Virus record (IMG/VR): IMGVR_UViG_3300025853_000868
Span: 1 to 20,296 of that record
From: a virus
Length of the DNA stretch: 20,296 bases
Reading direction: 5' to 3' (one strand)
Position numbers and translations under genes: made by a program. The first letter of the stretch is position 1, and the number at the start of each line of letters is the position of its first letter. The notes beneath the pieces were generated by a model, which worked only from the letters and a program-made list of their open reading frames with translations, was not told where the DNA came from and searched no databases. This document shows positions 1,611-13,561 of the stretch, in pieces.

Positions 1611-3326
1611 TCAGACTCCAGGAACGGGGCCGGGCGCCCCTTCGATGGGGAGGCCTTCGGGCGGGAGGCCTTCGGGCGCGGGGGGTGCCACCTCGGGGGG
1701 AGGCGGGGCAGGGGTAGACAGGTTCTCCGGGAGCTGGAACACCCGGACCATCTCTTCGAGGATGAGGGCCGGGTCCGCCCCGAGCTGGACCAAGATGGGC
1801 GCCAGGCGCTCCAGGCTCTGCTGCTTGGCCAGGTCACTCATGGGCGTGGTGCCCGCGTCCACGGCCCAATACGAAAAGTCACCGGTGAGGTCATCGGCGG
1901 AGAGGATGGTGGGGCCTACCGGGTTGGGCAGGGCCAGGGGCTCCGCGTCATCCCCGAGGACCACCGACAACATCACGTTGTAGGTCTGCGCCAGGCCGGT
2001 GATGACCGCATCCCGGATGCGGGCCATCCGTCCCAGCTCGGAGGAGGTGTAGGCGGCCAGGAGGTTCTGTTCCGTGGCCGTGGACCTGGTGACCTCCCCA
2101 CGGGTGAACGGCGCCAGGAGGCCGGCGTCCCGGATATCCATGTCCACCGTGGTCGCATAGGCGGCGATATCGCCGGGGATGGGGGCCTGGGGGACCGGCA
2201 GAATGTTGCCGGCCAGGTCCGCCCCGGGCGCCAGGTCCACCTCCACGAACTCCCCGTCGAGGCCCTGGCTAATCTTCGCGCACGAGTCCTCGGAGAGGAA
2301 GCCGGCCCGGACCATCCACTGGCGGGCCATCCGCCGGACGCCCTGGGCCTGGTAGGTCCTCATCACGTTCATCTCCCGGAACTGGTCCAGGCTGCGGTGG
2401 ATGAGGCTGTAGCCCCGGAGCGGGGTGTCCGGGTCGCGCGAGAAGTAGAGCGGGAGGATGGGCACCACGGGGCGGCCGGACGCACTCTTGTAGGGGATGC
2501 CCGTGGTTTCGTGGACAATCTCACCCTCGGGGGTCTCGGCCTCGGCCTCGGCCTCGGGGTCGAGGGCGCCCACCTGAACGCGGACCCCCTCGAAGAGGTA
2601 GGCGTCCCCGTCTTGGTGGTCGGGCGACCACACCAGGAGCCGGTCTTCCTGGAGGTCGTAGAGCTCCACGATGCGGACCCACCGGTCCGAGTCGGGCACG
2701 GCCCCCGCGTTGGAGTCAATGCCCAACATGGTGTCCTTCCCGGCAATGCCCGTGGCTTCAATCCACTTCGAGTACGCCCGGGTCCTGAACTCCGTGGACT
2801 CCTTGCCGTAGCGCTCCGAGGCCTCGGCCACCGGCATGAGGTACACGTGGCCTACGTGGCGCTGCTGGTCCCAACTGCAGGCCGTGGCGTCCACGATGAC
2901 CTCCCAGGGCGGGAGTGCAGCGCAGGACACCCGCTTCAACGGGTCCACGGACTCCACCGGCGCCAGCTTCATGAAGGCGCACGGGTAGATGAGCGCCAGG
3001 CGGGTGGCGTCTTCGAGCTGCTCCCGGATGGTGAGCAGGTACTGGTTGGCCGTGGCCTGGGCCACCTCGGGGTTGCCCCGGTCCCGGAGGTCCGGTTCCA
3101 CCCGAACCGCCGGGTTCTTGGCGTAGAGGCTTCCCAGGTAGGACTCCACCACGGCGTAGGCCTTGGGGACCTCGGTGCGGAGGATGCCGTCAAGGGTGGG
3201 GTAGGTCTCGGACTCCCAAAAGCGCGTCATGTAGAGGCGCCGCAGCTCCCGTAGCTGGTCCCGCCGCTGGTCCCAGTACAGGTCATGCTGTTCGCAAATG
3301 TCGCGAATGTCCGAGGGTTCGAGCAT
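1611..3326 (-). CDS. portal protein
   Basis: A 571-residue protein directly downstream of TerL, the usual place of the portal gene. Portal forms the dodecameric ring at one capsid vertex through which DNA is pumped and leaves. The N-terminus (residues about 1-60) is helical and carries the Trp- and Tyr-rich segment RRLYMTRFWESETYPTL. The middle alternates mixed strands and helices and includes LPPWEVIVDATA, a type of sequence common where portals describe a fixed wing domain. A helical region around residues 300-420 fits the stem and crown. The last 35 residues are Pro/Gly/Glu repeats (PEGLPPEGLPIEG), probably disordered. The start ATG at 3324-3326 lies 8 bases after the TerL stop. Identification rests on length, fold pattern and synteny. 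Confidence 0.8.
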   Translation of the reverse strand: MLEPSDIRDICEQHDLYWDQRRDQLRELRRLYMTRFWESETYPTLDGILRTEVPKAYAVVESYLGSLYAKNPAVRVEPDLRDRGNPEVAQATANQYLLTIREQLEDATRLALIYPCAFMKLAPVESVDPLKRVSCAALPPWEVIVDATACSWDQQRHVGHVYLMPVAEASERYGKESTEFRTRAYSKWIEATGIAGKDTMLGIDSNAGAVPDSDRWVRIVELYDLQEDRLLVWSPDHQDGDAYLFEGVRVQVGALDPEAEAEAETPEGEIVHETTGIPYKSASGRPVVPILPLYFSRDPDTPLRGYSLIHRSLDQFREMNVMRTYQAQGVRRMARQWMVRAGFLSEDSCAKISQGLDGEFVEVDLAPGADLAGNILPVPQAPIPGDIAAYATTVDMDIRDAGLLAPFTRGEVTRSTATEQNLLAAYTSSELGRMARIRDAVITGLAQTYNVMLSVVLGDDAEPLALPNPVGPTILSADDLTGDFSYWAVDAGTTPMSDLAKQQSLERLAPILVQLGADPALILEEMVRVFQLPENLSTPAPPPPEVAPPAPEGLPPEGLPIEGAPGPVPGV

Positions 3327-3334
3327 CGGGGGCC

Positions 3335-4909
3335 TCAGAAGGGCAGGGAAGAAGAACGGATGCGCCGGGCACGGCTGGCCGCGATGAGGTCATCTATCCG
3401 CGTTCGTTGGGAGTGTAGCGCGTGCGTGCGCCACGTGGCAGGAACATCCCGGAGGCAACGGTAGGCGAGGGCGCAGGCCATCGCCGCGTCATCGTGGGAG
3501 CCTTTCGGCGCCTCGGGGGCCACCTTCCCGGCGGGGATGGTGAGGGACCGCAGCTCCAACCAGGTGGGCCGGTCCAGAATCTGGATTAGCTGCAGGCTTT
3601 CGCGCAAGGTGTCGAAGGCGTCCAGCTTCGACTGGAGGCTGGTCACCCACGGCTTCCCCTTCGGTCCGCGCCACTGTTGCCGGTACCCACAGTGGTCCAT
3701 TTCCAGGAGGAAGGCGTGGCCGTGGTTGTTGGACTCGGCCAGAACCAGCGCCTGGTTGTAGCGGCTGGCTACCTGGATAGCGCGGTGGGACCAGGCCGCC
3801 GGTGTCACGCGGTTGTTTCGCTCGGTGTAGACCACCTGGCGGGTGGAGACGGACACCACGCAAAGGGCGGAGTAGTCGCCCCCGACGCCTCCCCCGATGT
3901 CCACGCCCATCACGTACCGGTCATGGGGGTGCGGCGGTTCAATCTCCCGGCCGTGGCTCTCCCCGTGGAGCTGGTGTTCCACGACGTGGATGTTCCCGAG
4001 GAGTTCGTCCTCGAAGTACCCGCCCTCCCGGTCCAGGAAGCAGTCATCCATACACCCGGGGTACTCCCGGCGGAACTTGTGGGTGGACCCGATGCGCTTC
4101 TCCGTCCGGCGCCGCCAGTGGAGCTGGCCCGGCCGTAGGCTGTACTCCCGCTGTATGTCGCGTTCGTAATCGGACAGACTGTCCATGAAGTCCGCCGGCA
4201 CCATGTCCGGCGGGTCTTCGTAGGCGGGGTGTTCCCACCACCACATCGTCAGGAGGTGCCAGCCGTTCTCCGGGGCGGCCCGGACAAGCTGGGAGAAGAA
4301 GTCCCCGGGGTTGTTGGCGGTGCTCTCCACCATGAGCAGCCCTTCCCCTACGGCCGCGTCGAGCTGGGCGATGGTCTCCTCCAGGTCCGGCGCGAAGGCC
4401 GCCTCCGAGAGGACCGCCGCTGCAGGGGTGAAGGAGCGGAGGCCGGTGTTGGACCTCGACGTGAAGGCCTGCAGGCTGGCGCCGGTGTCATCGTACTGGA
4501 TGCACCCGCGCGCCTGGGTGCGGATGGGGCGCTGTAGCAGGGCGGGCGGGTCCTGGAGCCAACGGCGGGCGTCGTTCAACAAGGCCGTGGCCGAGTCGTC
4601 CCGCATGGAGATGACGGCGTGCATGGCCTCGAAGCGGGTGGCCGTGGCCATCCAGTGGAGCACCATCTTGCAGCCGGTGGTGGCGTAGACCTGGCGCGCC
4701 TTGATGACGATGATGCGCTTGTGCCCCGCCTCGACGGCCGCGAATATCTTGCGCTGCATCGGGGAGGGCACGAAGGGCCGGGGCTTCTTGCTGTCCTTGT
4801 CCTGGACCTGGTGGAGCTGGGAGAAGGCGGACAGGTCCGACAACAGGTGTTCCACCCGCAGCGTCATCCCCGGCGGCACCCTCCCGGGGACGAAGGGGCG
4901 GGCCTTCAC
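3335..4909 (-). CDS. terL: terminase large subunit (packaging ATPase and nuclease)
   Basis: A 524-residue packaging motor that pumps phage DNA into the prohead and cuts it. The N-terminal ATPase shows a P-loop-like KARQVYATT at residues 70-78, an acidic Walker B position in AAVLSEAAF with Glu169, and a coupling motif VESTANN at 194-200. The C-terminal RNase H-type nuclease shows GVDIGGGVGGDYSA (Asp337, Asp345), AESNNHG (Glu392) and KGSHDDAAMA (Asp473, Asp474). The start is a GTG at 4907-4909 that overlaps the stop of the upstream 80-residue gene as GTGA. The Walker A lacks the usual GKT/S ending, a variant seen among terminases that keep the Lys-x-Arg-Gln core. Portal follows immediately. Confidence 0.93.
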   Translation of the reverse strand: MKARPFVPGRVPPGMTLRVEHLLSDLSAFSQLHQVQDKDSKKPRPFVPSPMQRKIFAAVEAGHKRIIVIKARQVYATTGCKMVLHWMATATRFEAMHAVISMRDDSATALLNDARRWLQDPPALLQRPIRTQARGCIQYDDTGASLQAFTSRSNTGLRSFTPAAAVLSEAAFAPDLEETIAQLDAAVGEGLLMVESTANNPGDFFSQLVRAAPENGWHLLTMWWWEHPAYEDPPDMVPADFMDSLSDYERDIQREYSLRPGQLHWRRRTEKRIGSTHKFRREYPGCMDDCFLDREGGYFEDELLGNIHVVEHQLHGESHGREIEPPHPHDRYVMGVDIGGGVGGDYSALCVVSVSTRQVVYTERNNRVTPAAWSHRAIQVASRYNQALVLAESNNHGHAFLLEMDHCGYRQQWRGPKGKPWVTSLQSKLDAFDTLRESLQLIQILDRPTWLELRSLTIPAGKVAPEAPKGSHDDAAMACALAYRCLRDVPATWRTHALHSQRTRIDDLIAASRARRIRSSSLPF

Positions 4910-5148
4910 TCCCCAACCAGGGTCAACACGTTCCGCAGCTCCTCCACCTCGGGGGTGTCCAGCTCGGGGGCTTCGTACCCCCGGGCCAGGTCCAGGACCC
5001 GGAAGGCCGTGTCCAGGACCGTGCGGTTGGGGGACTGGGTGCCACGCAAGGCCCGCTCAATGCAGGCGATGGCATCCGGCGCCAGCTCGGCCAGGGAGCG
5101 GTCAATCTGTGCCGGGGTGAGGACTCGGGGCTCAACAGGGTGGTCCAT
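4906..5148 (-). CDS. small protein upstream of TerL, candidate small terminase
   Basis: An 80-residue protein, first gene of the leftward late operon. The ATG at 5146-5148 has a clear AAGGAG ribosome site (complement of 5154-5159) spaced well for initiation. The chain is acidic and helical: LTPAQIDRSLAELAPDAIACIERAL, then a Leu-rich helix and an acidic tail. It overlaps terL by four bases (GTGA), so the two are translationally coupled. Position fits a small terminase subunit, which recognises the packaging site and regulates TerL. However, it is shorter than typical TerS proteins and no helix-turn-helix is obvious. It could instead be a regulatory or unknown protein. Confidence 0.6.
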   Translation of the reverse strand: MDHPVEPRVLTPAQIDRSLAELAPDAIACIERALRGTQSPNRTVLDTAFRVLDLARGYEAPELDTPEVEELRNVLTLVGE

Positions 5149-5170
5149 GGGGACTCCTTAGGTGATTCCT

Positions 5171-5204
5171 ACAGTGCAGGGTTGACCCGTCTACCATGCA
5201 CTGT
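5171..5204. repeat. AGTGCA element inverted pair I
   Basis: ACAGTGCAGGGT at 5171-5182 faces ACCATGCACTGT at 5193-5204. The arms match at 11 of 12 positions across a 10-base spacer that contains the end of GTTGAC. Arm centres are 20 bases apart, about two helical turns, as expected for one dimer or tetramer bound on one face of the DNA. It lies just upstream of the first late gene, so occupancy could control leftward transcription. Confidence 0.85.
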
Positions 5205-5238
5205 GAGACTATGCGGTCTTCCCCGGCTTTCGGGAGAT

Positions 5239-5329
5239 AGTGCAGGGTAGTGCAGGGTTTAGGCCCTCCGTATGTAGTATACATATCACTCCATTGCTCT
5301 ATAGGAATAACCCTGCACTGCCTTGCACT
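5239..5329. repeat. symmetric four-copy AGTGCA array around AT-rich centre
   Basis: Two perfect tandem copies of AGTGCAGGGT (5239-5248 and 5249-5258) point rightward. Two head-to-tail copies point leftward at 5310-5319 (ACCCTGCACT, perfect) and 5320-5329 (GCCTTGCACT, variant). The result is a large inverted repeat with two 20-base arms and a 51-base centre. The centre is AT-rich and holds its own palindrome at 5271-5285. The 10-base periodicity of the tandem copies puts them on the same DNA face. Confidence 0.85.
5271..5285. repeat. AT-rich palindrome inside the symmetric array
   Basis: TATGTA at 5271-5276 and TACATA at 5280-5285 are perfect 6-base inverted arms around a 3-base spacer. The element lies close to the symmetry centre of the four-copy array. 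It could be an unwinding site, a second operator half-site pair, or part of a promoter. Confidence 0.7.
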
Positions 5330-5363
5330 ATTGCCCTATAAGGGAGGAAGAATGGTAATCCTC

Positions 5364-5405
5364 ACAGTGCAGGGTAGACACGTCAACTTGTCAACCCCGC
5401 ACTGT
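5364..5405. repeat. AGTGCA element inverted pair II
   Basis: ACAGTGCAGGGT at 5364-5375 faces ACCCCGCACTGT at 5394-5405, matching at 11 of 12 positions. The spacer is 18 bases. GTCAAC occurs twice, at 5382-5387 and at 5390-5395, the second running two bases into the right arm. It is the counterpart of pair I on the early-gene side of the control region. A single half copy, AGTGCAAG at 5448-5455, lies further right and is followed by another GTCAAC at 5457-5462. Confidence 0.83.
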
Positions 5406-5536
5406 GGCCGAAAGGTCAGGTTTGAGGGGGCTACTTCTCGGTAGAATAGTGCAAGCGTCAACGGGTATTTGGGGCTGGCGGGCTTTTGGTGCTTTTCTTG
5501 TTGCATTCCTCCGCTACTCCATTACTCCAGTGTGGA

Positions 5537-5554
5537 GCGTGGGAGACACCACGC
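5537..5554 (+). promoter_or_regulatory. leader hairpin before the first early gene
   Basis: GCGTGG at 5537-5542 and CCACGC at 5549-5554 form a perfect 6-base stem with a 6-base loop. It ends 6 bases before the AGGAG ribosome site at 5561-5565. In the early mRNA it could affect ribosome access or transcript stability. There is no U-run after it, so it is not a typical intrinsic terminator. Confidence 0.45.
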
Positions 5555-5571
5555 CACCCCAGGAGAGCCAC

Positions 5572-5736
5572 ATGGAATACGGTATGCACCCGCTTGACCC
5601 CACCGACGACTACAACCCCGACGACTACCCGACCCCGCCGACCCCGCCGTCCACGGACCTCGGGGAGCTGCTGTTCAGCATCTTCGCGGCCGCCGGCATC
5701 ATGCTGGCCATGTGGTTCTGGATGCTGGTGCTGTGA
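5572..5736 (+). CDS. early membrane microprotein
   Basis: A 54-residue protein and the first gene of the rightward operon. The ATG at 5572 has an AGGAG ribosome site at 5561-5565 with 6-base spacing, which favours it over a longer in-frame reading from 5404 that runs through the repeat region. Residues 1-30 are soluble, acidic and Pro-rich (DPTDDYNPDDYPTPPTPP). Residues about 33-54 are a hydrophobic helix rich in Met, Trp and Leu ending at the C-terminus. This predicts a tail-anchored, single-pass inner membrane protein. Its stop overlaps the next start as TGATG. Early membrane microproteins of phages often act on the host envelope or block superinfection, but nothing here proves that. Confidence 0.75.
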   Translation: MEYGMHPLDPTDDYNPDDYPTPPTPPSTDLGELLFSIFAAAGIMLAMWFWMLVL

Positions 5737-6104
5737 TGGGGAAGCCTACCGACTCCGAAGTCTTGACCCTGGTGGACCTCCACACCATGGCCCGCGACAT
5801 TCAGGACCGGATGGAGGGCCTGGACACCCCGTGGACCCTCGACGTTCACGTGGGCCAGAAGGGCCTCCGGTCCTGGGGCGCGGTCACCTTCGAGTTCGCC
5901 CCGCCGGACCGCTACCACATGGGCCTCTTGGGCGCCGCGCGTGTCCGCCTCCCTGAGAACGCGCGCGTGCGGGACTACAACACCGGCCGGTGGAAGCACG
6001 CCAGCTACCGCATCAACAACGACTGGACGCTGGAAGTCACCCGGGAACTCATCAACCCCGTCTTCCCCGTCGAGGAGTTCAGCGTCCCGAAGGGGGAAGA
6101 GTGA
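5736..6104 (+). CDS. hypothetical early protein
   Basis: A 122-residue protein. I chose the ATG at 5736, which overlaps the upstream TGA as TGATG, over an earlier in-frame ATG at 5712 inside the microprotein gene. It begins with a helical segment (TLVDLHTMARDIQDRM), then has alternating strands with many aromatics (TPWTLDVHVG, AVTFEFAPPDRYHMG, KHASYRINNDWTLEV). This suggests a small alpha/beta or beta-rich fold. No catalytic motif, signal peptide or membrane helix is seen. I do not recognise the family. Its place between the membrane microprotein and a DNA-binding protein implies early expression. Confidence 0.75.
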   Translation: MGKPTDSEVLTLVDLHTMARDIQDRMEGLDTPWTLDVHVGQKGLRSWGAVTFEFAPPDRYHMGLLGAARVRLPENARVRDYNTGRWKHASYRINNDWTLEVTRELINPVFPVEEFSVPKGEE

Positions 6105-6544
6105 ACGCCCGGCCCCACCTTCCCCCGTCCCATGAGGACATTCTGACCGCCCTGCGGCGGTACGGCCCCCTCACCAAGGGAGACGCCTCCCGCCGGTCCG
6201 GCTACGCCATGAGCACCACCCACGATGCCATGCGGCGCCTGCAGCGCTTCGGCCTGGTCGAAGTCGTGATGACGGTGCGAGGGGAGGCCCGGGGCCGCAC
6301 CCGCAACGTCTACGGCCTGGTGGGTGTCCACCGGCGCCTCCGCTCCCGCCGCACCTTCATCTTGGAGTTGGTGGAGACGTTGCGCGCGGTCACCACCCAG
6401 GAGTTGGCCGCCCACGTCGGCATCAACCCGAAGACGGCCGACTACTACATCAAGGAGTTCCGGGAGGAGGGCGCCATCCGGCTGGTGGGCTGGGAGTTCC
6501 GCCCCACCGGGGGACGCCCGGCGCCGCTGTGGGGGGTCGCATGA
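6101..6544 (+). CDS. double winged-helix DNA-binding protein
   Basis: A 147-residue protein starting at the GTG at 6101, which overlaps the previous stop as GTGA. Residues about 8-65 form one winged helix: HEDILTALRRYGPLTKGDASRR, then the recognition-like helix AMSTTHDAMRRLQRFGLVEVV and a wing ending in NVYGLV. Residues about 80-147 form a second: LELVETLRAVTTQELAAHVG, NPKTADYYIKEFREEGAIRLV and a wing rich in Gly/Pro. Two such domains in one chain would bind two half-sites, or one longer site, as a monomer. It is the only clear sequence-specific DNA-binding protein near the AGTGCA array, so it is the leading candidate for operator or origin binding. That pairing is inference. Confidence 0.75.
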   Translation: MNARPHLPPSHEDILTALRRYGPLTKGDASRRSGYAMSTTHDAMRRLQRFGLVEVVMTVRGEARGRTRNVYGLVGVHRRLRSRRTFILELVETLRAVTTQELAAHVGINPKTADYYIKEFREEGAIRLVGWEFRPTGGRPAPLWGVA

Positions 6545-6786
6545 GTCGCCCGGAATGGCGACCCCGCCGCAACTGCTACAGCTGCGCCCGGGATTGGTAC
6601 GACCTCGACGACGACTACCACTACTGCCTTGTCATGGATGGCTCCGACCTCTACGCGCCGGTCATGGAGTGGGTCGACGCCCATGTGGCGACGGAGCCGG
6701 GCACCATGCCCCGCCCCGAGGCCGACGGGTGCCCCGGTTGGGTGCCGCGAGCGTGGCTGGCGCCGGTTTACGGAGGTGAGGAATGA
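6541..6786 (+). CDS. small Cys-containing hypothetical protein
   Basis: An 81-residue protein from the ATG at 6541, overlapping the upstream stop as ATGA. It is acidic and aromatic. An N-terminal CYSC pair (Cys12, Cys15) is followed by Cys29 and Cys64, which could form a small zinc site, although the spacing is irregular. There is no membrane segment. It has the look of short phage proteins that carry a CxxC followed by a Tyr-Cys pair, but I cannot assign a function. It is the first of four small overlapping genes between the winged-helix gene and the primase. Confidence 0.7.
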   Translation: MSRPEWRPRRNCYSCARDWYDLDDDYHYCLVMDGSDLYAPVMEWVDAHVATEPGTMPRPEADGCPGWVPRAWLAPVYGGEE

Positions 6787-7181
6787 GCCGCACCGCAGAG
6801 GAGTGGGGCCGCCTCGCCGTCAGCCTGCCGGGTTGGCGGTGGATGGCGGGGATGCGGTATTTCTACGGAGGTTTCAGCGCGTCAACGGGAGCGAGCGAGA
6901 ACTACGTCGATCGACTGTGGGAGGACGACGCAGGCCCATACGACCACGCCATCTTCCCCGCTCCCGACCCCGACGACCCCGCGACCGCCGGGTGCCTGCT
7001 TCGGCTGCTGGGTGACGGCGTCCGGCAGGTGTTCCCACCGTTCCGGAACGCGACGGCCCGCAACTGCTCGTGGTGGTGCATCTATCTGTCGGGTGGTGGC
7101 TGCGTTGAGGCACCGACCCTCGGACGCGCCTGCATCGCCGCCGCCGCTGCCCTCGGGCGGTGGCCGGGGGGTGAGGAGTGA
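6783..7181 (+). CDS. phage accessory protein of the GWRWM type
   Basis: A 132-residue protein from the ATG at 6783, coupled to the gene before it by ATGA. It opens with EEWGRLAVSLPGWRWMAGMRY, then has a charged middle with PDPDDPATAGCLLRLL and a C-terminal CVEAPTLGRACIAAAAALGRW. This layout recalls a widespread but uncharacterised type of small protein in prophages and phages, with a Trp-rich start, a DP-rich centre that leads into a helix, and an Ala-rich final helix. No enzyme motif is visible. It is probably cytoplasmic and early. The resemblance is from memory of the family pattern, not from a search. Confidence 0.7.
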   Translation: MSRTAEEWGRLAVSLPGWRWMAGMRYFYGGFSASTGASENYVDRLWEDDAGPYDHAIFPAPDPDDPATAGCLLRLLGDGVRQVFPPFRNATARNCSWWCIYLSGGGCVEAPTLGRACIAAAAALGRWPGGEE

Positions 7182-7456
7182 GCCCCCGACTGACCCCGGA
7201 CCGCGTGCGCCGCAAGCTGCTGTTGGCCGTCGGGAAGCGGGTGTCCTGGTCCATCGTACTGGCCGGGCCGCCCCTTGCCGGCTGGGCGCCCCTCCGCCGC
7301 AACACCGGGGAGCGCATCTGGCTCCGGGTGTCCGGCGGCCGCCCCGTCCTCCGCTACACCGAACCCCGCGTCTACCGTGACGCCAAGAACGCCCTGACTC
7401 CCAATGAGGCCTTGGCCTTGAAGTGTGAGTTCTACTACCAGGAGACTGACCGATGA
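7178..7456 (+). CDS. basic hypothetical early protein
   Basis: A 92-residue basic protein from the GTG at 7178, overlapping the previous stop as GTGA. The first half is Arg/Lys/Leu/Val rich (DRVRRKLLLAVGKRV), followed by short strands around WLRVSGGRPVLRYTEPRVY and a final helix NALTPNEALALKCEF. It has no clear membrane helix and no Cys pair. The basic character would fit nucleic acid contact, but no named domain is recognised. Its stop overlaps the ribbon-helix-helix-like gene as ATGA. Confidence 0.65.
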   Translation: MSPRLTPDRVRRKLLLAVGKRVSWSIVLAGPPLAGWAPLRRNTGERIWLRVSGGRPVLRYTEPRVYRDAKNALTPNEALALKCEFYYQETDR

Positions 7457-7671
7457 GTGACACCCCGAAGGCCAAGAGTGATGCCCCGAAGGCCAAGAAG
7501 TACCGCGTGGAGCTGTCCAACGACCATGAAGTGGAGATGAAGATGGCGGCCGTGGCCGCCGGCCTCTCCGTCCCGGACTACATGGAGCAGGTGGTCCGGC
7601 CCGTGGTCCAGGAGGACCTGTCCCGCCGCCTCCGCGCCGGCGCCCTGGCCGCCCTCTTGCCCGTTCAGTAG
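7453..7671 (+). CDS. ribbon-helix-helix-like small DNA-binding protein
   Basis: A 72-residue protein from the ATG at 7453. The N-terminus has a near-duplicate TPKAKSDAPKAKK linker, mirrored in the DNA by a repeated CCCCGAAGGCCAAGA. Then come KKYRVELSND (the strand of a ribbon-helix-helix), a helix EVEMKMAAVAAG, a turn GLSVPDY and a second helix MEQVVRPVVQEDLSRRL. This order and length match Arc/ParD-type domains, which dimerise and place the strand in the major groove. It could regulate the early operon or help load the downstream primase-helicase. It may also be a non-DNA-binding relative. It ends 8 bases before the primase start. Confidence 0.6.
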   Translation: MSDTPKAKSDAPKAKKYRVELSNDHEVEMKMAAVAAGLSVPDYMEQVVRPVVQEDLSRRLRAGALAALLPVQ

Positions 7672-7679
7672 GTCCCCCC

Positions 7680-9935
7680 ATGGATGCCAACACCGCACGG
7701 GTATGGCCCACGCCGCCCGAAGGCCACACCTATGTCCGCCAGTCCCTTCGGGGCGGGGACTACATCTCCACCGGCTACTTCCCCCAGCGGATGGTGGACC
7801 GGCACGGCCGGGGGAGGACCGTCCACAACTGCGCCTCCGTGACCTCCCTGTTCTTTGACTGTGACCTCCTCGGCCTCTACGACGCGGCCCGCCAGGCGCG
7901 GGGGCACGTCCTCGAAGCGCGGGCGGCGGAGCGCAAGGCCAAGCTCTACAAGGAGGCGCCGGACGTGGTGGAGGGTCTGCGGGCGCTCCTCCTCGATGAG
8001 GTGGTGTCGTGTGTGGAGCGGGCGGTTGGCCTCCCCCCCACCCTCCTCCTGGACTCCGGCTGGGGGTTCCACGTCCACTACGCGGTGGACCCGGAGATGG
8101 GCGGGGAGCTGGTGGCGCTGCAGCAGATTGCGGCCGCCATCATCGATGAGTCCAACCGCCTGGCCTACGAAGTGGGGCACACCTTCCAGCCCCGCTTGGA
8201 GCTCCCCAGCGCCTTCGACGCCACCCACGACGTGGGCGCACGCTTGGCCAGGGAGCCGGGGAGCACCAACACCAAGGCGCCGGGGAACCCTCGGCCCGTG
8301 CGGGTCATCACCTCCGCGCCCACGGTCCTCGGCCGGGAGAAGCTGGCGGAGCTCCGGGACGCCTACCTCCGCCCCGGTGTCCTCCCCGATGCCCGCGATG
8401 AACCCGGCCCGGTGCCGAAGGTCAAGCGCCCGAAGCAGGCGACCCAGGTGGACGTGGACTTCCGCTCCATGCGCCTGGCCGATGGCCGGACGTGGCAAAC
8501 CATCGTAGACGCCCTGTCCCCCGGGGAGCGGGCCAAGGTCATCTGCCCCTTCGGCGGTTCGACCGTGGGCAGCGGCTTCTTCTTCATCGAACCCGATGGC
8601 CGAGGGCGCTACCACAGCGGCCCGCAGTCCTGCACCTACTGGAACAGCTACCGGGGCGGAGGCACCACCGGCCTCGCGGAGCTGGTGCGGGGAACCAGCC
8701 GAGACGGGAGCCCGGCTGGCCCGCTCAACACGGTGACCAACCTCTACAAGATGCTGTCCGAGGACTCCAACTTTGACCTGTGGTTCGATGCCTTCCGGGG
8801 CCTGGAGATGGATGGCACCGAACCCCTCCAGGACGTGGCGTGGGTCAAGGTCCTGCAGCACATGGACGCGGGCTATGGCTGGTTGTGGCGCCCGGGGCGG
8901 GAACTCATCTGGTCCACCCTGGAACAGGTCTGCAGGGAGCGCACGGTAAACCCCCTCCAGGACTACCTGGCCACCCTGAAGTGGGACGGGGTGCCCCGGT
9001 GCCACCGGTGGATTGCGGATGTGTGTGGCGTCGAAGACCGGGACGTGTACCGCGCCTACTCCCTCCGGTGGTGCATCGGCCTGGCGGCCCGTGCCCTGGA
9101 CCCCGGCTGCAAGCTGGACACGTGCTTGGTGTTGACCGGCCCGCAGGGCTTCGGGAAGTCCTCGTTGTTCCGGGAGTGGGCCAGCATCCCGGACGTGGGC
9201 GAGCTGTTCTCGGACACCCGCTTCAACATGAAGGACAAGGACGCCTATCTACAGCTCTACATGGCCTGGATTTACGAAGACGCGGAGATGAGCGGCCACA
9301 GCTCCGCCGACAAGGAGGTCCGCAAGGGCTTCCTGTCTTCCCAGGTTGACCGCATCCGCCCACCCTTCGGCCGCAAGGTCCGCACCTTCAAGCGCCACAC
9401 GGTCATTGTGGCCACGTCCAATGAACGGAACATCTTGCGAGACTCCACCGGTGACCGTCGGTATTGGGTGGTCCAGGTGCCGAAGACCGGCCAGGCGGAC
9501 CTGGAGTGGTTGCGGCGCCACAAGGGGCAGTTGTTTGCCGAGGCCGTCCACCGGTTCAAGGCCGGGGAGCCCTGGTGGTTGACCCGCGAAGAAGAAGCGC
9601 TCCGCAGCAAGAACAACGAAGCCTTCCGGTATGTGGACTGGTACACCGAATGTGCCGGCATCGTGTACCGGGCGAACCAGGGCGGACCCCGAAACCGGTT
9701 CACGGTCTCTCAGTTTGCCCGCGCCATCGATGACCACATCAACCCGCAGGCGCGTGGTCTGTCCCTTTCCGCCGCCCTTCTGCGGGTCGGCTTCGAGCGT
9801 ACCCGTAGCAACGGGACCACCTGGTACGAGAAGATGGGAGCTTGTACCGGGAATGACAACGGACTGCAGGCCATCCGCCAGTTGTCCACCAACAACAACC
9901 CACACGTGTACGAGGCGTACACCCCAGGAGACTGA
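7680..9935 (+). CDS. PrimPol-type primase fused to SF3/VirE-like helicase
   Basis: A 751-residue replication protein that would prime and unwind phage DNA. The N-terminal archaeo-eukaryotic primase (about 1-230) shows FFDCD (Asp60, Asp62) and SGWGFHVHY at 126-134. It also has REPGSTNTK at 191-199, the usual PG(T/S)xNxK end of this domain. A linker at 288-320 has CPFGGS and SGPQSC, possibly a reduced zinc or DNA-contact element. The C-terminal superfamily 3 helicase, of the virulence-associated E type, shows LTGPQGFGKSS (Walker A, 485-495), AWIYEDAEM (Walker B, 529-537), VATSN and STGDRRYW (588-596). The ribosome site before ATG 7680 is weak, so coupling to the upstream gene is likely. ERF follows after 3 bases. 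Confidence 0.9.
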   Translation: MDANTARVWPTPPEGHTYVRQSLRGGDYISTGYFPQRMVDRHGRGRTVHNCASVTSLFFDCDLLGLYDAARQARGHVLEARAAERKAKLYKEAPDVVEGLRALLLDEVVSCVERAVGLPPTLLLDSGWGFHVHYAVDPEMGGELVALQQIAAAIIDESNRLAYEVGHTFQPRLELPSAFDATHDVGARLAREPGSTNTKAPGNPRPVRVITSAPTVLGREKLAELRDAYLRPGVLPDARDEPGPVPKVKRPKQATQVDVDFRSMRLADGRTWQTIVDALSPGERAKVICPFGGSTVGSGFFFIEPDGRGRYHSGPQSCTYWNSYRGGGTTGLAELVRGTSRDGSPAGPLNTVTNLYKMLSEDSNFDLWFDAFRGLEMDGTEPLQDVAWVKVLQHMDAGYGWLWRPGRELIWSTLEQVCRERTVNPLQDYLATLKWDGVPRCHRWIADVCGVEDRDVYRAYSLRWCIGLAARALDPGCKLDTCLVLTGPQGFGKSSLFREWASIPDVGELFSDTRFNMKDKDAYLQLYMAWIYEDAEMSGHSSADKEVRKGFLSSQVDRIRPPFGRKVRTFKRHTVIVATSNERNILRDSTGDRRYWVVQVPKTGQADLEWLRRHKGQLFAEAVHRFKAGEPWWLTREEEALRSKNNEAFRYVDWYTECAGIVYRANQGGPRNRFTVSQFARAIDDHINPQARGLSLSAALLRVGFERTRSNGTTWYEKMGACTGNDNGLQAIRQLSTNNNPHVYEAYTPGD

Positions 9936-12963: not shown

Positions 12964-13307
12964 CGCTTCGGGGTCCGCTTCGAGGGTGCGCGCTTCCCGC
13001 TCCGCTTGCGGAACAGCGCCTCCTGTACGTCCTTCTTCGTGGCGCGGGTGGAGGGCGTCTTCTTCTTGCTGACCACCTTGGAGGGTCGGCAGTACTGGGA
13101 CTTCGCATCCCCGCTGTGGCCGCAGGGCTTCCCCGTGGCCTTGTCCACCCACTTCTCCTTCGCCCATCGGCGGAGGCTGGTTCCCTTCTCCGTCTTCCGC
13201 ACCTGGCCCTTGCGCTTGCGACACTTGGCCACGGCCTGGGAGGCGCGGGCCGAGGGCCACACCTTGTACCGGGCCTTCACTTCCTTGGTGCAAGCGTCAT
13301 CCGCCAT
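12960..13307 (-). CDS. basic Cys-containing protein resembling DUF5872
   Basis: A 115-residue, strongly basic protein. I chose the ATG at 13305-13307, which overlaps the upstream stop as TGATG. It has ACTKEVKARYKVWPSARAS near the start, LRRWAKEKWVD at 45-55, then CGHSGDAKSQYCRPSKVVS and TPST. The combination of KWVD, a CRPS motif and TP matches the DUF5872-type proteins I recall from large DNA viruses and some phages. The four cysteines (6, 29, 62, 73) could bind zinc. The last third is Lys/Arg/Ser and probably disordered, fitting nucleic acid contact or packaging with the genome. No tested function is known to me. Confidence 0.7.
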   Translation of the reverse strand: MADDACTKEVKARYKVWPSARASQAVAKCRKRKGQVRKTEKGTSLRRWAKEKWVDKATGKPCGHSGDAKSQYCRPSKVVSKKKTPSTRATKKDVQEALFRKRSGKRAPSKRTPKR

Positions 13308-13561
13308 CACTTCACCAGCTTGGAGACGGGCTTCTTGGACCACAGCTTGCAGCTATGGTAGCGCGCCTTGTTGGGCGGCCCGGGGTCATCGCACCCGTGC
13401 CGGCTACGGAAGTTCTTGCGGGCCTTGGGGTCATCCCGGCGGATTTCCATGTCCGGGTCCCCGAAGCGCACGGTGTAGGGCTTCCCCTTGTAGGTGCCCG
13501 TCGCCACGAACTTCTTGCGCCCGTGGCCCGGCTCGCCCTTCTTGATGCGGCGGACCGGCAT
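13307..13561 (-). CDS. basic small protein resembling DUF5754
   Basis: An 84-residue basic protein from the ATG at 13559-13561, sharing one base with the upstream stop. The N-terminus is RRIKKGEPGHGRKK. The core has KKFVATGTYKGKPYTVRFGD, PDMEIRRDDPKARKNFRSRH, then GCDDPGPPNKARYHSCKLW. A GDP-x-M segment, an Arg-rich FRSRH and a Cys plus CKLW ending is a pattern I recall from marine phages and algal viruses (DUF5754-like). It pairs with the DUF5872-like gene next door. Two cysteines (57 and 71) and His56 might form part of a metal site. Role unknown. Confidence 0.7.
   Translation of the reverse strand: MPVRRIKKGEPGHGRKKFVATGTYKGKPYTVRFGDPDMEIRRDDPKARKNFRSRHGCDDPGPPNKARYHSCKLWSKKPVSKLVK

Follow-up and report, generated by a model that had tools for sequence, protein, structure and literature searches.

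The array described here lies in a window of 20,296 nt (the whole stretch of viral DNA analysed), where it occupies the gap between a leftward gene resembling those for small terminase subunits (terS; start at 5148) and a rightward early operon (Table 1). It begins 25 bp from the terS-like start codon and ends 2.3 kb upstream of the start of a gene for a VapE-like primase-helicase. The 80-aa terS-like protein gave no family match in profile searches; by eye, set beside the longer TerS of two relatives (L009 and L012), it appeared to match their C-terminal part only and to lack the N-terminal part. In the nearest relative (L002; TerL 99% identical), an extra gene, absent from the window, was present between terS and terL.

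The original prediction had called this gap the only control region of the phage. No other divergent intergenic region occurs in the window; the window itself, however, is probably a fragment rather than a whole genome, because the contig of a relative (G001, 3300017909_002920) measures 30,405 bp and carries a 141-bp terminal repeat, which suggests that this relative's genome is complete at about 30.3 kb.

Table 1. Positions of the iterons, the AT-rich centre and the neighbouring genes in the window
Feature	Position	Strand	Remarks
80-aa small-terminase (terS)-like gene, first left of the array	4906..5148	-	Synteny with terL in relatives
Iteron 1 (F), AGTGCAGGGT, outer left pair	5173..5182	+	Kept in four relatives
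Iteron 2 (R), AGTGCATGGT, outer left pair	5193..5202	-	46 bp before FF, like L070 and L075
Iterons 3 and 4 (FF), tandem, 10 bp apart, left inner block	5239..5258	+	Starts 5239 and 5249; fully invariant in five phages
AT-rich centre between FF and RR, candidate DNA unwinding element	about 5259..5309 (51 bp)	.	39% GC
Iterons 5 and 6 (RR), tandem, 10 bp apart, right inner block	5310..5329	-	Starts 5310 and 5320 (AGTGCAAGGC)
Iteron 7 (F), outer right pair	5366..5375	+	
Iteron 8 (R), AGTGCGGGGT, outer right pair	5394..5403	-	
Claimed ninth copy, AGTGCAAGCG	5448..5457	+	Three mismatches; lost in L044, L047 and L048
147-aa protein, two winged-helix domains	6101..6544	+	Pfam HTH matches
72-aa ribbon-helix-helix-like protein (RHH72), possible accessory factor	7453..7671	+	Kept only in the phage group of the window
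VapE-like (SF3, D5-type) primase-helicase, 751 aa, proposed iteron-binding initiator	7680..9935	+	PF05272, E 3.9e-66; PHROG DNA helicase/primase
C-terminal winged-helix domain of the helicase, about residues 654-717, proposed iteron binder	9639..9830	+	AlphaFold H-H-H-E-E

Eight iterons, each of them AGTGCAGGGT or a close variant, span positions 5173 to 5403 in the order F R FF RR F R (F, forward; R, reverse), with start-to-start distances of 20, 46, 10, 61, 10, 46 and 28 bp. This order is its own reverse complement and reads the same on both strands, so the symmetry originally described (F-R, FF-RR, F-R) was confirmed for the eight copies. The nine-copy array first claimed at 5171 to 5455 was in turn shortened by one: since the copy at 5448 differs at three positions and was lost in three more distant relatives, it is probably not an array member. 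The sequences CTTGCACTATT (5322 to 5332) and AATAGTGCAAG (5445 to 5455) form a perfect 11-nt inverted pair that joins the RR block to this weak ninth copy.

Exact GTGYAGGGT occurred five times in the window, always within the array, versus 0.32 expected, and none of 100 shuffles reached five. The best 10-mer family of the gap had seven members at one mismatch or less, while 200 dinucleotide shuffles mostly gave two or three and a maximum of six, reached once. When two mismatches were allowed, the element showed no genome-wide excess (21 seen versus 21.9 expected), and therefore the signal consists in clustering, order and conservation. An RNA element or a tRNA was discarded as a reading, given that the array region rendered no Rfam or tRNA match and no terminator-like stem.

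Relatives of the phage were gathered by scans with TerL, with the primase and with the repeat pair, which yielded four contigs with the full array. Loss of the copies in related phages had been named beforehand as the result that would speak against the element; all four relatives (TerL 83 to 99% and primase 76 to 97% identical) retained the eight copies, at near-identical spacings of 20, 46, 10, 59 to 61, 10, 46 to 48 and 28. Across the window and these relatives, 75 of 80 positions within the sites were invariant (94%), versus 55 of 153 between them (36%). In the 30,405-bp relative, all eight exact AGTGCANGGT sites fell in one array. A further group, with TerL 66 to 68% identical, showed the layout R-36-FF-73-RR-36-F, and two more distant contigs (L045 and L046; primase 53 to 55%) contained degenerate copies only. 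The array remained in the gap between terS and the early operon throughout the TerL group. A second inverted element, GAGAAYGC, was observed in the same gap in L045 (6302 to 6532), L012 and L009, where AGTGCA copies were reduced or lost; it is possibly a replacement of the iteron in these phages.

The centre between the FF and RR blocks is the lowest-GC 51-bp stretch of the window, whose mean is 68%, and an AT-rich centre was found at the equal position in the relatives and in the Lactobacillus phage phiadh (see below). Within it, GCTCTATAGG (5296 to 5305), located 4 bp left of RR, was, apart from the iterons, the longest block invariant in all five phages. The cumulative GC skew showed no minimum at the array, but it follows gene orientation and was set aside as uninformative for locating an origin.

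The element had been taken as specific to this phage, which proved incorrect: about 16 other lineages carry the same iteron and layout next to a D5/VapE-type helicase gene. A scan of viral contigs for two adjacent GTGYAGGGT words recovered arrays in phages without the TerL, portal or RHH gene of the window. In all nine such arrays outside the phage group, the neighbouring gene encoded a D5_N/DUF5906/VapE primase-helicase. The VapE-like helicase was the only gene family of the window common to array carriers beyond its phage group; no relatives of RHH72 (by tblastn), the 147-aa protein, terS or terL were detected among those carriers.

A layout pattern fixed beforehand (R, 26 to 46 bp, F, 0 to 2 bp, F-like) matched 56 viral contigs, against a roughly estimated chance expectation below one. 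Among the 41 new contigs, DUF5906 was present in 35 and VapE in 22, and the 6 without DUF5906 were fragments of 4.3 to 9.6 kb. The control, a motif with the same composition in scrambled order, matched eight contigs, none with DUF5906, D5_N or VapE (Fisher p of 7e-6 for the presence of the helicase in pattern contigs versus this control, the contigs not being independent). By flanking DNA, the pattern contigs fell into 10 clusters, each with at least one contig carrying such a helicase; no such helicase was found on the contigs of two related array fragments (L082 and L084). Within the allowed 26 to 46 bp, the distance from R to FF took only the values 27 to 28 or 35 to 40, which differ by about one helical turn. 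The array started 6 to 76 bp past the 3' end of the helicase gene in 18 of 19 whole contigs; the remaining contig is a member of the window's own group, in which the array does not lie at this typical spot directly behind the gene.

The GTGYAGGG word was not universal among such helicases. When D5/VapE phages were sampled by helicase similarity, 21 of 22 loci contained 0 or 1 copy, and since most of the sampled phages lack such an array, a single iteron for all these helicases was excluded. The layout, in contrast to the word, was encountered elsewhere. The Pseudomonas phages Lodos and PG1 showed FFF-20-R-45-FF-about 100-RR(R)-46-F, with TGTGTYGGGT (TGTGTTGGGT or TGTGTCGGGT) in nearly all copies. 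A motif-free layout scan beside the primase gene, blind to sequence and with a rule tuned on known arrays, retrieved layouts of this kind written in unrelated words: Marinobacter phage PS3 with the word GGTCATCCC and the order F-20-R-45-FF-about 77-RRR-36-F-20-RR, together with similar layouts in Bacillus phage rho14 (TTGTTACTT), mycobacteriophage Ekdilam (GGGCACAG, with a clearer left half) and the unannotated Pseudomonas phage KT1 (TGGTTAGGG). Scores of 5 or more were obtained for 5 of 26 D5/VapE phage loci, 1 of 21 control loci and 0 of 208 shuffles; the one control contig (L116) had itself been selected for a tandem repeat.

Layout and initiator thus appear to stay while the word changes (Lodos, PG1 and PS3). 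It is likely that D5/VapE phages share an origin grammar in which the layout is fixed and the iteron word varies between lineages. This grammar would comprise an outer F-R pair, an R copy and a tandem FF separated by 36 or 46 bp (values one helical turn apart), an AT-rich centre and the mirror image of these elements, written with words such as GTGYAGGGT, TGTGTYGGGT, GGTCATCCC, TGGTTAGGG and TTGTTACTT. With so few loci and a rule fitted to known arrays, we regard the general grammar as a strong lead and not as proof.

The helicase encoded in the window matched PDB entry 7pds (titled PriRep1 with dsDNA), a VapE-like protein, with an E value of 6.9e-36. Its C-terminal domain was modelled by AlphaFold with pLDDT mostly between 73 and 84, within a poor overall model (mean pLDDT 52.8), and the structure matches of this domain were winged-helix chains, PriRep1 7pds among them. 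Several conserved specific repeats, a D5/VapE-type helicase on the same replicon and an AT-rich stretch between the iterons were all found, as in an iteron origin. The array is very probably the replication origin of the phage, its 10-bp iterons being recognised by the phage's own VapE/D5-type SF3 primase-helicase, most likely through the C-terminal winged helix. An iteron origin had been one of the readings first offered, and it now has strong support from the layout beside D5/VapE-type helicase genes, the conservation of the copies and the AT-rich centre. The pairing of helicase and iterons is drawn from their co-occurrence and position; binding, melting, ring loading and origin activity are inferred. 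According to the proposed model, the helicase would bind the iterons, and the convergent FF and RR blocks would seat two helicase rings head to head over the AT-rich 51-bp centre. The centre would then melt and the rings would unwind outward, while the R and F copies lying outside these blocks (at about 36 or 46 bp) and the next pair outward (at about 20 bp) could stabilise or phase the complex.

Given its place in a divergent control region, the proposed origin of the window's group may have an additional effect on transcription. The array would then be a dual element, origin and operator at once for the divergent terS-terL and early promoters, in which binding of the initiator would couple replication to transcription. 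This extension, compatible with the origin model, is possible but tentative. The array fills the divergent gap up to the vicinity of the terS-like start codon, stays there across the TerL group, and by inspection has TTGAC-like words overlapping its outer iteron pairs; however, no sigma-70-like promoter was found between 5000 and 5700 (other promoter types are possible), and elsewhere the array lies behind the helicase gene, so that it need not control anything.

Binding of the repeats by RHH72, either as an operator or as a partition-like centromere, is improbable. RHH proteins such as Omega and ParG bind short repeats in mixed orientation, the structure model of RHH72 shows the RHH helices, and its gene was retained throughout the TerL group. 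Nevertheless, tblastn detected no relative of it in the other lineages with the same iteron and layout; an Omega/ParG-like array, in which the RHH gene accompanies the array in all carriers, was accordingly rejected.

Even less credible is an operator for the 147-aa protein, acting as a phage-specific switch between early and late genes. This protein has two HTH domains by Pfam, and its gene belongs to the early operon adjoining the array, but the protein was restricted to the window and its closest relatives; it was absent from L044, L047 and L048, which retain all eight copies, and from all other array carriers searched. A phage repressor array, with a cognate repressor conserved together with its sites, was discarded on the same grounds. 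With the 147-aa protein missing from most carriers, RHH72 confined to the group and no sigma-70-like promoter found, the early/late switch of the original prediction found no support as the main function. Since the same layout occurs beside one helicase type in many unrelated phages, the array is better explained as a shared origin design than as a private switch. A packaging (pac/cos) site read by the terminase, suggested by the adjoining terS-like gene in the window's group, is equally hard to credit and was rejected, because in other lineages, where terS and terL relatives were undetected, the array follows the helicase gene.

The closest known systems include the SaPI and SCCmec origins. 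The SaPI Rep protein, a D5/VapE-like self-loading helicase, is reported to recognise iterons directly behind its gene through its C-terminal domain, apparently as two hexamers (PMC7581432). SaPI origins resemble the array in having several short repeats, the element's own D5/VapE-like helicase as the (here proposed) initiator and two proposed hexamers, and they resemble most array lineages in the position of the repeats directly behind the helicase gene. Unlike in SaPI, the array of the window's group lies in a divergent control region upstream of that gene. For the shared GTGYAGGGT word and the palindromic 36/46-bp order, no description was found in the open-licence papers searched. In the putative origin of SCCmec Cch2, the isolated C-terminal domain of a D5-type helicase binds direct repeats behind the gene (PMC7581432). 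The Cch2 iteron AAGTG shares AGTG with that of the window, possibly by coincidence, but only three 5-nt iterons are present and no eight-copy palindromic order is described. Lambda-type operator arrays also place repeats in a divergent control region; in the present case, however, no cognate repressor was conserved with the sites and the layout followed the helicase.

In Lactobacillus phage phiadh (AJ131519), such an array falls inside a deposited rep_origin feature (13084 to 13469), directly behind a D5-type primase gene. Like the window, phiadh combines GTGTAGGGT and GTGTATAGT iterons, with F and R blocks flanking a very AT-rich centre; unlike it, phiadh is an unrelated phage with mixed iteron words and with all right outer copies in R orientation. 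No description of GTGTAGGGT origins was found in the open-licence literature, which gave only the SCCmec/SaPI work, an absence that weighs little because only open-licence papers were covered. The array would thus be an origin of the self-loading-helicase kind, known in type, with a widely shared layout that is undescribed as far as could be searched.

D5/VapE-type primase-helicases are common in phages and satellites, 624 to 1,393 of 50,697 phage records matching single queries, yet known origins for them are scarce. With a fixed layout that can be searched for, such origins could be found from sequence, and the DNA-binding domain of each initiator would be tied to a known word. Such a layout would also impose a geometric constraint (9 to 11, about 20, and 36/46 bp) on the loading of two SF3 rings. 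If the layout is indeed fixed while the word changes, both the position of the origin and the specificity of the initiator could be read from sequence.

Some carriers departed from the usual arrangement. In L150, the array, near 6100, lay inside a single 1748-aa open frame (3049 to 8292) with a DUF5906 match and a polymerase-like end; if real, this would be an origin within a coding frame. In the uncultured Ruminococcus RUG12253 (G021), units of the form FF-about 107-RR with GTGTAGGGT were observed at several places of the genome (L057, L059 and L064), one of which (L057) adjoins a D5 gene; these scattered units are possibly several integrated elements or solo copies of the origin.
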